Below, piece after piece: positions 11,283-17,120 of a stretch of 64,000 bases of DNA. The notes beneath the pieces are model-generated. The model was given only the letters and a program-made list of their open reading frames with translations. It was not told the DNA's origin and did not search any database. Positions within the stretch are counted from its first letter, which is position 1, and every line of letters starts with the position of its first letter. The DNA comes from Bryobacterales bacterium (lineage in GTDB: Bacteria; Acidobacteriota; Terriglobia; Bryobacterales; Bryobacteraceae): NCBI GenBank assembly GCA_003135055.1, contig PLDF01000457.1, positions 3,795-67,794 of the forward strand. The letters are read 5' to 3'. A program made the position numbers and the translations under genes.

Positions 11283-12515
11283 ATGGCAAATGCCGGAAAA
11301 AAGGTACGCAACCCCTTCCGGCCCGGAGCCGGCCACATGCCGCCTTACCTGGCTGGCAGGGAGCACGAAACCGACGAATTTCGTCAGCTGCTGGAACAGG
11401 ACGCAATCCTCGCCAATTTGATCCTGACAGGTCTTCGGGGCTTGGGCAAAACAGTACTACTGGAAACGTTTAAACCTATGGCGATTCAGGCCGGATGGCT
11501 CTGGGCGGGCGCGGATCTGTCGGAATCCACCAGCGTTAGTGAAGAAAATATGGCGACCCGGTTGTTAACGGACCTGGCTGTAGTGACTAGCTCCATTATG
11601 ACGGCAATGTCTTACCCCCAACCAGCCGGGTTCACTGGACAACCGCCTAAACCTGTCACTCTAGATTACTATTCTCTCAAAGATCTCTATGACATCACCC
11701 CCGGTTTGGTATCCGATAAGCTCAAGAACGTTCTGGAAAGCGTATGGTTACACGTGGAGGCGACAGGTAAGAGGGGCATTATCTTTGCGTATGATGAGGC
11801 CCAGAACCTAGCCGACCATGCGCCCAAGGATCAGTATCCGTTATCCTTGCTGTTAGACGTTTTCCAGTCTCTTCAGCGTAAGGGTGTCCGGTTTATGCTG
11901 GCGCTGACTGGCCTGCCGACGCTATTCCCAAAACTGGTAGAGGCGCGGACGTTCGCGGAGCGCATGTTTCACGTCGTATTTCTCAATCCGTTGAGCGAGG
12001 GGGAAACCACAGCGGCAATCCGCAAGCCAATTCATAAAGAGAGTTCCCCTGCCAGTTTTTCGGCGGAGTCTGTCAAGACGATCTGGTCAATGACCCGCGG
12101 GTACCCCTATTTCGTTCAATACGTATGCCGCGAAATGTTCGATGTTTGGGTACAGGCCATTGATGCCGGACATCGGCCTCCGGGTATACCTATCAAAGAG
12201 ATCATCAGGAAGTTGGATTCGGATTTTTTCGCGGGAAGGTGGGCTAGGGCCACCGACCGCCAACGCGAATTACTCGGGATCGTTGCCCGCCTGCCAAACT
12301 GCCACTCGGAATTCACGGTGCTGGAAGTTGTCGAAGCCAAGGAAAACCAGGCTCTCAAGAAATCCTTCAGCGGCAGCCATATTAATCAAATGCTCGTGTC
12401 ACTTTCCGATGCCGGCTTGATCTACAAGAACCGCCATGGAAAGTACTCATTCGCCGTCCCGCTTCTGGGGGACTTTATCCGCCGGCAGGAAGACTATGGA
12501 GAACACGTCAGATGA
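11283..12515 (+). CDS. AAA+ ATPase with C-terminal winged-helix-like region
   Basis: Walker A GLRGLGKT, Walker B IIFAYDEAQ, C-terminal SHINQMLVSLSDAGLIYKNRHGKYSFAVPLLGDFIRR resembling a wHTH. Confidence 0.85.
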   Translation: MANAGKKVRNPFRPGAGHMPPYLAGREHETDEFRQLLEQDAILANLILTGLRGLGKTVLLETFKPMAIQAGWLWAGADLSESTSVSEENMATRLLTDLAVVTSSIMTAMSYPQPAGFTGQPPKPVTLDYYSLKDLYDITPGLVSDKLKNVLESVWLHVEATGKRGIIFAYDEAQNLADHAPKDQYPLSLLLDVFQSLQRKGVRFMLALTGLPTLFPKLVEARTFAERMFHVVFLNPLSEGETTAAIRKPIHKESSPASFSAESVKTIWSMTRGYPYFVQYVCREMFDVWVQAIDAGHRPPGIPIKEIIRKLDSDFFAGRWARATDRQRELLGIVARLPNCHSEFTVLEVVEAKENQALKKSFSGSHINQMLVSLSDAGLIYKNRHGKYSFAVPLLGDFIRRQEDYGEHVR

Positions 12516-12601: not shown

Positions 12602-13270
12602 ATGTTTCGAACGCCCGCTCTCGCGGTTGCGCTCGCCGCGCTGCTTCTTTCCGCGTGCTCCCATAAGAAGCGCGCGCAGGTTCCGCCGCCCCCGCCATCC
12701 CGCCCGTCCGCTGTGCCCGGCGCCGTCGAAACCGGCATCGCCAGTTGGTACGGCCGCCCCTACCACGGACGCCGCGCAGCCGACGGGGAAACCTATGATA
12801 TGGAGACGCTGGTGGCCGCCCACCGCACTTTGCCATTCAATACCTGGGTGCGCGTCTACAACCTCAACAACAATAAGACCGTCGATGTCCGCATCATAGA
12901 CCGCGGCCCGTTCGTGGATGGCCGCATCATCGACCTTTCTCATGCCGCCGCCCAGGCCATAGACATGATTGGCCCTGGGATCGCGCAGGTCCGCGTCGAA
13001 ATCCTCAGCGCCCCGGCAACCGTGGCGCCCACCGCTTTTGCCGTCCAGGTAGGCGCTTTCCGCGACCGCGCCAACGCCGAGCGTGCCCGCGCCGGGATGC
13101 AGGCCCGCTATGGCCGCGCGCAAGTGGTGTTGGAACAAGGCTTTTGGCGCGTTTTGGTGGGCCAGGAAGCCACCGAAAAGGCCGCCGAGGCGTTGGCAGC
13201 CCGCATCCGGCAAGATTCTCCTGAGAATAAAACCTCCTTCGTCGTACGAATTGACTTGACGCGAACTTAG
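12602..13270 (+). CDS. rlpA: RlpA-family protein: lipoprotein signal, DPBB and SPOR domains
   Basis: Lipobox-like LLLSACSHKK, GIASWYGRPYHGRRAADGETYDMETLVAAHRTLPFNTWVRV..IIDRGPF, C-terminal SPOR-like AFAVQVGAFRDRANAERARAGM. Confidence 0.92.
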   Translation: MFRTPALAVALAALLLSACSHKKRAQVPPPPPSRPSAVPGAVETGIASWYGRPYHGRRAADGETYDMETLVAAHRTLPFNTWVRVYNLNNNKTVDVRIIDRGPFVDGRIIDLSHAAAQAIDMIGPGIAQVRVEILSAPATVAPTAFAVQVGAFRDRANAERARAGMQARYGRAQVVLEQGFWRVLVGQEATEKAAEALAARIRQDSPENKTSFVVRIDLTRT

Positions 13271-13482
13271 CTTGACGCGGACTTAGGAGGTTCTTGATGA
13301 ATTCGACAGCCGCGGCCTTGAGCCACGGTCTGGTGGGCGACTCGCCGCAAATCGGCGCGATCCGCCGCTTGATTGAAAAAGCTGCGCGCAACCGCCTGCC
13401 GGTCCTGCTGCTCGGGGAGAGCGGAACCGGCAAGGAAGTGGTTGCCCGTGGCATCTACAATGCCAATGCCCGCGGACAATTG
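12820..13482 (+). repeat. Copy 1 of a ~660-bp direct repeat (rlpA 3' part plus 5' part of sigma-54 regulator)
   Basis: Gapless alignment by eye to 15621-16283; mismatches scattered, mostly silent. Confidence 0.92.
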
Positions 13483-13497
13483 CCCGCAATCAATTGA
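13297..13497 (+). pseudogene. Truncated 5' fragment of sigma-54-dependent regulator (retains Walker A)
   Basis: [60 protein letters not shown] matches the N-terminus of the intact gene at 16098, then diverges to a stop. Confidence 0.9.
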
Positions 13498-13515
13498 GAA
13501 AAAGCCGTTACGTAG

Positions 13516-13560
13516 TGCGCCCGGAGAGACTCGAACTCCCGGCCTACTGGTTCGAAGCCA
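13516..13560 (-). other. tRNA-Arg 3'-end fragment (anticodon loop, variable loop, T-arm, 3' acceptor strand); attachment-site-like
   Basis: Minus strand: TGG CTTCGAA CCAGT AGGCC GGGAG TTCGAGT CTCTC CGGGCGC A; loop reads anticodon TCG; T-stem GGGAG/CTCTC; 5' half absent. Confidence 0.75.
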
Positions 13561-13778
13561 TCAACGCCTTAGGAATCAACAACTTAGCAATGGGCACATA
13601 GGCTTTGTGATACCCTGCTAGAAGTTGCTGCAAGTTAATAGTAATCAGGATGTTCGGCGGTGCCGGCATTGCAAGAAACTTTCGTTACTCGCAACGGTGA
13701 GCAATGCCTCTATGCACGGAGTGGGACAGAATTGGGCACAGTCACAATTGCGTTTACAGTTGGCAGAGGAGTCAATTC

Positions 13779-14396
13779 ATGAGACACGCTCTCGCGTTCC
13801 TTCTCGTGGCGTCCTTGATGGCGCTCGGTGATCGCGCGCAAGCCCAATCGGGAGCAACGGAAGTGGAAATGGAAGCCGGCGGCCTGAAGTTTACGGTGCA
13901 GGCAGAAATGAAACCGGGCGATTTCGTGGTCAATTTAACGGCGGTACTCCGCAATTTATCAGACAAAGATTGGCGGATGCAGTCTATGCTGATGACCGTG
14001 ACGGGCGATTGCGGAAGGGGTCGCCATCAGTTTAAGTTTACGACCTCCTTTCAGCCGATCGCACCGGGACTTAATACGATTTCCGCTTATGAGCCGGCCT
14101 TTCGGAAAAACGGCTCGTCCTGTACCGTTTATTCGGTCGGACCGGTGAAGTTTGTTGGCCTAGCGCCCGTTGACGACGCCACTCAGGCGTCACTGCGCGC
14201 GCAACGGCAGAACGCCATCGACTTGGAAAAGCTAACCATCGATTTGGCCAAGCTGCACAAAGAACAGCGCGAGAAGGCCGAAGTTAACTGTCATGCGCTT
14301 CACGAGGCCACCGCGGATCGCAAGATGTCCGATCTGACTGTGCGTGAAACCGAGCAGGTGAAGGCGTGTCAGGATCTTGGATTGTATCGGGAGTGA
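13779..14396 (+). CDS. Hypothetical exported protein
   Basis: MRHALAFLLVASLMALGDRAQAQS signal peptide; ORF 13704..14396 with internal start. Confidence 0.65.
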   Translation: MRHALAFLLVASLMALGDRAQAQSGATEVEMEAGGLKFTVQAEMKPGDFVVNLTAVLRNLSDKDWRMQSMLMTVTGDCGRGRHQFKFTTSFQPIAPGLNTISAYEPAFRKNGSSCTVYSVGPVKFVGLAPVDDATQASLRAQRQNAIDLEKLTIDLAKLHKEQREKAEVNCHALHEATADRKMSDLTVRETEQVKACQDLGLYRE

Positions 14397-14552
14397 AAAT
14401 CAAGGTTTCGCTGCTACCCTTCCCCGGACCCCAACGACATAGCCTGAACATTTTCGGATAGTCTTGTAGTAGCCGCCTAGCTCGACGCGGCGAACGCCGG
14501 TTTCCCTGACCGGTTGGCGGCCACTCCACTTCAGGGATTCGCTGAGGGGGCG

Positions 14553-15311
14553 ATGGACAACCTGCCGCTGCTTCCGCGGGCCTTCGAGGATGCCTTTGAG
14601 GCCGAAAAGGCCAACGCGGAATTGGCTTACCTGGATCGCATTCTTGCAGAGCTCATCGATGATCGACGCGCCGCGGCCAAACAACAGAATTTGCTCCGTG
14701 CCGTGTTTTTCGCATATTGCGCTCAGGCAAGGGGCGCTTGCCGGCAGGGTATCTGGACGGTTGCGGAAGCGAGGCGCGCCTCGGATGCGGCGTTGCCAGC
14801 TATCATCGATTACTACTTCGAGCAGTATTTCAGGCGCGATTTCGAGCGTAACCTCGACCGCCGGCTCTCAGATGATGAGGAACGGGACCGCCGTAGCCTG
14901 ATGCCAACGATGGTCAAAACTAGCCCGCAATGGAAACAGCACCGCTTGCAGCTCAAATCGTTAGCCGAAGGCCCTTCGGTTGCCTCACCCGTACCGAGCG
15001 GCGGAAACGGCGAGAATCCGAGCGCATCGAATGCGGAAAACGGGCCGCGTGCAGACGTAGTGGCAACTGTGGCAAACAGGCGCCACGGAACTGACCGACG
15101 CGCGGCGGTTGACGCCTACATCGCGGAAGTCTGCGTCTCAACTGGTAAGAGAATCTCACGGGCTGATATTTGGCGGAAGGCAGGCGACAAAACCCGCACT
15201 GAATTCGAACGATGGGAAAGCTACTTCTATGAGCGACGGGGAGGAAAGCTGAACACATCCGCGGACCGACGGTTCACCAGACTTCTCAGAGAAAAACCCC
15301 ACCTGAAGTAG
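14553..15311 (+). CDS. Hypothetical protein in the insert
   Basis: ORF 14514..15311; charged helical N-terminus, C-terminal AAVDAYIAEVCVSTGKRISRADIWRKAGDKTRTEFERWESYF. Confidence 0.6.
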   Translation: MDNLPLLPRAFEDAFEAEKANAELAYLDRILAELIDDRRAAAKQQNLLRAVFFAYCAQARGACRQGIWTVAEARRASDAALPAIIDYYFEQYFRRDFERNLDRRLSDDEERDRRSLMPTMVKTSPQWKQHRLQLKSLAEGPSVASPVPSGGNGENPSASNAENGPRADVVATVANRRHGTDRRAAVDAYIAEVCVSTGKRISRADIWRKAGDKTRTEFERWESYFYERRGGKLNTSADRRFTRLLREKPHLK

Positions 15312-15371
15312 TTTCCACGCATGGCCACGCATTTCCACGCATTTCCACGCGTTGTGCCACGCTAAGCGTGG
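15312..15371. promoter_or_regulatory. Array of five direct CCACGC boxes plus one inverted box upstream of the HTH gene
   Basis: tttccacgca/tggccacgca/tttccacgca/tttccacgcg at exact 10-bp pitch, then ccacgc-taa-gcgtgg hairpin. Confidence 0.75.
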
Positions 15372-15423
15372 TGCTCAATCCTTCTCTTGGGCAGGCAAAA
15401 ACAGCCACCCGAGAAGGGATCAA

Positions 15424-16071
15424 ATGGTAATGGCAAACAACAGCATTGAAACGCTTCTGAATGAGCATGACGTAGCACGTTTCACCGGGCTTTCCGTGGC
15501 GAGCGTGAGACGTTGGCGGCTTCTTCGTCAGGGGCCGAAGTACCTGAAGATTGGAGCGGCCGTCCGCTACAAGCCCGAGGACATCTCGGCATGGCTCGAA
15601 TCGCGGCCGTCGGGCGGTGCTCACCGTACCTTGCCCTTCAACACCTGGGTGCGCGTCTACAACCTCAACAACAATAAGACCGTCGATGTCCGCATCATAG
15701 ACCGCGGCCCGTTCGTGGATGGCCGCATCATCGACCTTTCTCATGCCGCCGCCCAGGCTGTCGACATGATTGGCACCGGGATCGCGCAGGTCCGCGTTGA
15801 AATCATCAGCACCCCGGCAACCGTGACGCCCGCCGCTTTTGCCGTCCAGGTAGGCGCTTTCCGCGACCGCGCCAACGCCGAGCGCGCCCGCGCCGGGATG
15901 CAGGCCCGGTATGGCCACGCGCAAGTGGTGCTGGAGCAAGGCTTTTGGCGCGTTTTGGTGGGCCAGGAAGCCACCGAAAAGGCCGCCGAGGCGCTGGCCG
16001 CCCGCATCCGGCAAGATTCTCCTGAGAATAAAACCTCCTTCGTCGTACGAATTGACTTGACGCGAACTTAG
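15424..16071 (+). CDS. Chimeric protein: excisionase/AlpA-like HTH fused to RlpA DPBB (partial) and SPOR domains, no signal peptide
   Basis: IETLLNEHDVARFTGLSVASVRRWRLLRQGPKYLKIGAAVRYKPEDISAWLESRPSGG joined in frame to AHRTLPFNTWVRVYNLNNNKTVDVRIIDRGPF... Confidence 0.88.
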   Translation: MVMANNSIETLLNEHDVARFTGLSVASVRRWRLLRQGPKYLKIGAAVRYKPEDISAWLESRPSGGAHRTLPFNTWVRVYNLNNNKTVDVRIIDRGPFVDGRIIDLSHAAAQAVDMIGTGIAQVRVEIISTPATVTPAAFAVQVGAFRDRANAERARAGMQARYGHAQVVLEQGFWRVLVGQEATEKAAEALAARIRQDSPENKTSFVVRIDLTRT

Positions 16072-16283
16072 CTTGACGCGAACTTAGGGGGTTCTTAATG
16101 AATTCGACAACCGCGGCCTTGAGCCACGGTCTGGTGGGAGACTCGCCGCAAATCGGCGCGGTCCGCCACATGATTGAAAAAGCTGCGCGCAACCGTCTGC
16201 CAGTACTGCTGCTCGGGGAGAGCGGAACCGGCAAGGAAGTGGTTGCCCGCGCCATCTACAATGCCAACCCCCGCGGGCGATTT
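15621..16283 (+). repeat. Copy 2 of the ~660-bp direct repeat
   Basis: Aligns without gaps to 12820-13482. Confidence 0.92.
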
Positions 16284-17120
16284 GTGACCATCGATTGCGG
16301 CTCGCTGGTGGGCCCGCTGATGGAAAGCGAGCTGTTCGGCCACACCAAAGGCTCGTTCACCGGAGCCACCGAGAACAAGAAGGGCCTGGTGGAGCTGGCC
16401 GACGGAGGCACCGCCTTCTTCGACGAGATTGGCGACCTGCCGCTTGAGCTGCAGGTCAAGCTGCTGCGCCTGATTCAGGAGAAGGAATTCCGCCCCGTGG
16501 GGTCGCTGCAATGGCGCCACGTGGATCTGCGCGTCATCGCCGCCACCCATCGCGATCTCAAAGCCGAAGTGGCCGCCGGGCGGTTTCGCCTGGATCTCTA
16601 CTACCGCCTGAACGTTTTTCCCATGCGGCTGCCGGCGCTGCATGACCGCAGACAAGATATTCCGCCGCTCATCGAACAGTTTCTCGACGCCGGCCGCGAC
16701 GACGGCCTGCCCGAATTCCACCCCAATGCGGAGACTCTCGCCACGCTGCTGGCCTACGACTGGCCGGGCAACGTGCGCGAACTAAAGCACTGCATCGAGC
16801 GCATGGCCGCCATGCATTCCGAAGGAGCCATGGAAGACGCGCTGCCCTCCGCGCTGCTTTACGCGCGTTCGGCGGCTAGCCTTCACCAACTTTCCGAGGC
16901 GGTGGACGAGAGCCTGCTGAGCGAGGAGTTCCATCCGCGGGCATCGCCGGTGATCTCCATTCCGGAAAGCGAAAAGCTGGCGATTGAGCGCGCGCTGGCC
17001 TCGACGCACGGCGAACGCGGCCGCACCGCCGAGATTCTGGGCATTGGACGCACCACGCTCTACCGCAAGATGAAACAATACAAGCTGGATTGCCACGGCC
17101 TCGCTTCTGCCTCGACGTAA
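16098..17120 (+). CDS. Sigma-54-dependent transcriptional regulator (AAA+ and Fis HTH; no receiver domain)
   Basis: [44 protein letters not shown]-terminal [23 protein letters not shown]. Confidence 0.95.

Follow-up and report, generated by a model that had tools for sequence, protein, structure and literature searches.

The window, i.e. the whole stretch of 64,000 nucleotides that was analysed, belongs to a Bryobacteraceae-like genome (Acidobacteriota) of 10.7 Mb in 515 contigs with an estimated contamination of 9%, which is probably a MAG. It contains an integrative element that was truncated and now occupies 13497-15618; in this insert an att remnant of a tRNA-Arg gene is followed by an accessory gene, an int-alpA RNA, a gene that we named UP, an array of short repeats and an AlpA-like HTH_17 gene. 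The features of the locus and its borders are the following:

12818-13496, plus strand: first copy of a segment of ~660-680 bp (rlpA'-sigma54 activator') left of the element, 94% identical to the second copy
13515-13560, minus strand: attachment-site remnant at the left element end, identical over 46 bp to the 3' end of the tRNA-Arg(TCG) of the genome
13704-14396, plus strand: accessory gene, 230 aa, with a probable signal peptide and no family match
14470-14536, plus strand: int-alpA RNA (Rfam RF02996), 41.4 bits against a gathering score of 35.8
14553-15311, plus strand: UP gene, 252 aa, ATG at 14553; the N-terminal part is variable and the C-terminal domain helical (type A, IWRKAGDKTRTEFERW); UP is the proposed array reader
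15312-15351, plus strand: four 10-bp direct repeats, TTTCCACGCA / TGGCCACGCA / TTTCCACGCA / TTTCCACGCG, the first base directly after the UP stop codon
15357-15371, no strand assigned: dyad CCACGC-TAA-GCGTGG, i.e. a fifth repeat and its inverted copy; among relatives the dyad changes together with the repeat motif
15378-15420, plus strand: second hairpin, in whose stem the Shine-Dalgarno sequence for the HTH is paired; most relatives have a similar hairpin
15424-15612, plus strand: coding segment of the AlpA-like HTH_17 (excisionase-type), likely starting at ATG 15424 or 15430, its natural C-terminus lost
15619-16071, plus strand: rlpA copy, truncated to the SPOR/DPBB part of the lipoprotein and joined in frame to the HTH ahead of it
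15619-16297, plus strand: second copy of the segment of ~660-680 bp (rlpA'-sigma54 activator'), forming a direct repeat around the element

The duplicated tRNA 3' end at one end is what is found in tRNA-targeting elements with a tyrosine integrase. No integrase is present among the ORFs scanned at 13497-15618; the relatives have one, and the copy in the window is truncated, with its integrase and replication genes gone. The flanking direct repeat contains the 3' part of rlpA and the 5' part of a sigma54 activator gene, and its first copy ends in a broken sigma54 gene. Such a repeat would result if a circle with a homologous segment had integrated, or from a duplication, and the duplication or the truncated element itself may also be an assembly error, i.e. 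a join in a mixed genome. At the truncation the HTH runs into the second rlpA copy, resulting in an ORF of 239 aa (15424-16071 of the window) that consists of the AlpA-like HTH and the C-terminal half of the RlpA lipoprotein. This is the "fusion gene" of the preliminary description; it is a by-product of the junction and irrelevant to the array. As the operon downstream of the HTH is lost, the array switch proposed below is probably vestigial in this genome and part of the remnant. The product of the accessory gene is probably secreted. Beside the insertion, an AAA ATPase gene (11283-12515) matches PHROG 6841 (1e-55, unknown function), so that mobile-element cargo may extend leftward.

The array directly adjoins the stop codon of UP (15309-15311). 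CCACGC is found on the plus strand at 15315, 15325, 15335, 15345 and 15357 and on the minus strand at 15366-15371, exactly where the preliminary description had placed the repeats and the hairpin with the fifth copy. TRF calls the array at 15312-15350 with a period of 10 and 3.9 copies, and nowhere else in the 64 kb are there four copies of one hexamer that are evenly spaced by 7-15, a pattern seen in none of 60 Markov-simulated windows. As a single word, CCACGC is not enriched in the window (76 vs 68.7 expected). The HTH gene, said to start about 50 bp downstream, has its start codon (15424 or 15430) 52-58 nt past the dyad. The three-copy CCACGC pattern occurs only once in the 10.7 Mb of the source genome, namely in this array, and the exact triple is absent from the 60 related genomes searched. 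Since the exact triple motif is thus confined to the window, it is the architecture that is conserved, and not the motif.

This architecture can be followed through the relatives, whose loci carry L-numbers here, the window being WIN. Among 250 genomes from the order, 89 contain HTH relatives, and 62 loci including the window have an ORF (UP) that ends 55-200 nt before the HTH. At 19 of these 62 loci the stretch after the UP stop has a periodicity of 9-12 bp (p<=0.01), compared to none of 62 control stretches inside UP, and the lags are mostly 10 or 11. The common layout comprises the UP gene, repeats of 10-11 bp from near the UP stop, often a matching dyad, and then the HTH_17 gene; examples of arrays are TCTCCTCGCC in four copies in L044, TTTCCCCGCA in L049, TTTCTTCCGGA in L109 and TCTGTCCCAT in L045. 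Downstream of the HTH follow a primase (CHC2 or Prim-Pol) together with DUF3987, or an AAA protein, and then a tyrosine integrase, often with a tRNA gene. Each element contains one cluster of the repeat motif, which differs between elements, and the copies within an array change in concert. The expectation that a one-turn array precedes the excisionase-like HTH in related elements therefore holds for the layout, but not for the CCACGC triple itself. In L127 (G128) the UP gene and a CCTCGC array are ~1.1 kb apart, and in L128 (G227) the array is split and no HTH is seen; both are possible insertions inside the cassette.

The preliminary description had assigned the array to the HTH protein, which would bind the one-turn repeats cooperatively and thereby autoregulate its own gene or set the direction of excision. 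The adjacent gene does encode an excisionase-type HTH (HTH_17 31 bits; PHROG 66 excisionase 2.9e-8), direct repeats of 10-11 bp are typical sites of excisionase-type proteins, and the arrays directly precede the HTH gene. Precedents are Apl of phage 186, which has seven direct repeats at its own switch region and five at att (PMC7498355), the MerR-like BldC, a protein of 68 residues that binds 9-bp direct repeats with a loose consensus (PMC5859096), and AlpA of a Gram-negative PICI, which activates its own expression (PMC6092414). With the Apl switch region, and with wHTH arrays of the RdfS/BldC type, the locus shares direct repeats of about one turn (10 bp in the window, 10-11 bp in relatives), an adjoining excisionase-type HTH gene and a switch between the integrated and the excised state. 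However, the motif here goes along with the larger upstream protein instead of the excisionase. Across 51 loci, array similarity correlates with similarity of the UP C-terminus when the HTH is controlled for (partial Mantel r 0.77, permutation p 0.0005, p values of this kind being optimistic because the 51 loci share ancestry), whereas its correlation with the HTH, given UP, is r -0.09. Pairs of loci with alike HTHs and unlike UPs have an array similarity of 0.153, which is nearly that of unrelated pairs (0.136), and the recognition segment GLSVASVRRWR of the HTH is almost unchanged across elements with different motifs that change in concert. The HTH of L039 is 92% identical to that of the window, yet both its UP C-terminus and its array are different, and L106 and L117, with HTHs only 57% and 54% identical to that of the window, have the same UP type and CCACGC repeats. 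Moreover, the array is ~1.75 kb away from the att remnant in the window, and relatives have their integrase and tRNA at a distance of 2-3 kb on its downstream side; as Apl also has a second, non-att site, a site of this kind away from att is conceivable. In all arrays pooled, a TTYC core is enriched (TTCC 78 vs 46 expected), which the HTH could read loosely. Taken together, the HTH is an unlikely though still conceivable reader, and since the motif tracks the UP C-terminus, the array is suggested by sequence covariation to be recognised by UP rather than by the downstream HTH. What stands of the original proposal is a one-turn-spaced protein-recognition array before the excisionase-like HTH of an integrative element; the HTH as its specific reader is not supported.

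The relationship between UP and the array extends to single bases. Type A, the type of the window, was found at 14 loci in 257 genomes, and the third base of CCnCGC is A in one UP subgroup (WIN, L046, L106, L117), C in a second (L042, L049, L126) and T in a third (L047, L048, L099, L127, L128), where L046 has imperfect repeats and L042 shifted ones. In all 12 type-A loci readable for both, base 3 sorts with the three UP subgroups, which is one of 27,720 arrangements, although this figure is no clean probability, given that the alignment was divided into subgroups by eye and that the loci have common ancestors. This amounts to a natural specificity table, with three subgroups of one putative DNA-binding domain and three one-base site variants (CCA, CCC or CCT followed by CGC). 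The pairing of the dyad is also kept through the motif changes (column pair 6-16: UA5/AU4/CG2).

As UP and the array are adjacent, co-inheritance could yield part of this signal, and in the extreme the repeats would be a functionless tandem duplication that is merely passed on together with UP. UP, array and leader indeed form partly one block: a correlation with UP is also seen for the leader that separates the array from the HTH (partial r 0.65), and the correlation of array and UP persists at 0.63 when the leader is controlled for. A functionless duplication is nevertheless improbable, because periodic arrays with unrelated motifs are found at the same place in many elements, including other families of the phylum, and because the copies change in concert and so do both arms of the dyad. 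Arm-type sites of lambda-type integrases can be direct repeats spaced 10 bp, and the repeats might be considered as arm-type integrase sites of an attP. This reading is the least probable of all, since the arrays lie at the wrong end, with integrase and tRNA 2-3 kb further downstream in intact relatives, and do not track the integrase: L047 and L048 have the array and the UP type in common while their integrases are only 24% identical, and L035 and L048 have integrases that are 63% identical next to unlike arrays. Likewise, replicases that are 46-75% identical adjoin unrelated arrays.

UP itself has no Pfam domain and neither a helicase nor a known initiator domain. For its C-terminal type A no relative exists in Pfam or the PDB, where a profile search gave chance matches only; AlphaFold predictions are of low confidence (pLDDT 49 for UP, 67 for the C-terminal domain) and gave no fold match. 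The C-terminus is absent from the phage and plasmid collections and from the viral contigs searched. None of the libraries searched contains the type-A domain family, and the one named relative of the UP protein is from a Bryobacterales MAG. The C-termini of the UPs of several other elements match Cro/C1-type HTH families. From the position of the type-A domain and from the HTH domains that replace it in other elements we infer that it binds DNA.

Architecture, recurrence and covariation were computed; from them we infer that UP binds the array, in which direction it regulates, and whether the site is an operator or an origin. On balance it is rather probable, though far from certain, that UP recognises the array as its cognate site and that both together are the control switch of the integrative element. 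The exchangeable C-terminal DNA-binding domain of UP would read the element-specific part of each 10-bp unit, here CCACGC, contacting the repeats on one helix face plus the terminal dyad. UP bound at the array would then most likely control transcription of the operon for the AlpA-type excisionase, primase/helicase and integrase; less probably, this contact would serve to initiate replication of the element.

In the latter case the array would be a replication origin, with iterons bound by UP as the initiator, and the primase and the DUF3987 helicase would supply the rest of the replisome, similar to SaPIs, PICIs and PLE. In PICIs, origin iterons are located immediately 3' of the initiator gene (PMC6092414), and the array is located immediately 3' of UP, the gene whose protein type it follows. 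CHC2 primase or Prim-Pol and DUF3987 are encoded downstream, each element has a single array, and a co-diversification of motif and initiator would be expected. The replication module of PICI/SaPI (AlpA or Xis, Pri-Rep, ori iterons) further shares with these elements the AlpA-type gene, the primase/helicase genes, an integrase by a tRNA in relatives, short iteron-like repeats located 3' of the gene for a DNA-binding protein and element-specific motifs. On the other hand, there is one repeat cluster per element and not two sets flanking an AT-rich stretch, UP is no helicase or primase-helicase initiator, and the array precedes alpA, fronting an operon with its own leader hairpin like a promoter-control site. 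The RepA protein of the V. cholerae PLE is similar in being satellite-encoded and in having ori iterons in a non-coding region, but it belongs to the RepA_N family with 13-bp inverted sub-repeats, to which UP has no detectable relation. We therefore regard an origin as possible but doubtful, and as this reading shares the contact of UP and array with the preferred one, the two are not exclusive. Between the two uses of the contact, we lean somewhat towards a transcriptional switch by UP over an origin with UP as initiator. The module resembles the Apl switch region or the origin iterons of satellites, but has the defining features of neither in full. A literature search of limited coverage found no paper describing the UP-array module, which is weak evidence of novelty.

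A transcriptional switch by UP would be framed by RNA elements on both sides. The int-alpA RNA ends 16 nt ahead of the UP start codon in the window; the spacing to the ORF is 15-16 nt in the window, in L034/L046 and in L039, and the RNA is also found upstream of the UP start in L034, L039, L042, L045 and L135-L164. When int-alpA RNAs were taken as an independent starting point, most had the start codon of an UP-like ORF 13-27 nt downstream, and because of this position the int-alpA RNA is probably the 5' leader of UP. Rfam files RF02996 as an sRNA gene, whereas here it is placed like the leader of a protein gene; the match of the window element is above the gathering score. With that, an orphan RNA gets a probable place before one particular gene, and its function becomes accessible to tests. 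A paper of 2017 reportedly describes the int-alpA RNA. ORFs led by int-alpA with an HTH end have arrays after them, and this extends to further families of the phylum (L194, L197 and L198, with 10-11 bp repeats of ACCACCG, CTGCACC and CCTGCAC), and those without a recognisable HTH end are mostly without an array. In L141 the int-alpA RNA directly precedes the integrase gene.

On the other side, the second hairpin (15378-15420) is stronger than the array dyad and takes in the ribosome-binding site ahead of the HTH. Hairpins covering the Shine-Dalgarno sequence have z scores of -1.3 to -7 in relatives, calculated from single-sequence folds; MAFFT/RNAalifold did not recover the hairpin as a consensus, which is due to indels that misalign it. 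The hairpin suggests a second, translational layer of control on alpA, in which it would probably gate translation. In the type of L071, L091, L108 and L109 the stem extends to the HTH start codon. No sigma-70-like promoter was found, and a two-block EM promoter search returned the repeat core and no promoter. TTG[AC] words show no overall enrichment and cluster 70-79 nt before the HTH start, which is a weak signal.

More tentatively, acidobacterial integrative elements may carry exchangeable self-recognition cassettes, each consisting of an UP with one of many DNA-binding C-termini and its own phased array. Such a cassette would be inserted between two conserved parts, the int-alpA leader RNA and the AlpA-primase-integrase operon. 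The array may then be read as a switch by two proteins, and a joint site with UP on the variable half and the AlpA-type HTH on the shared TTYC half is possible. If this is true, elements would fall into immunity or incompatibility groups according to their cassette type. The comparison also provides a simple marker for finding, and possibly for compatibility-grouping, integrative elements in a soil phylum with little-studied mobile elements. One member, L035, lies on an IMG/VR contig classed as viral and has an HTH relative, a Prim-Pol/DUF3987 replicase and an integrase, and its upstream ORFs on the opposite strand resemble terminase subunits by eye. Based on this classification and these ORFs, part of the element group may be phages or satellites.
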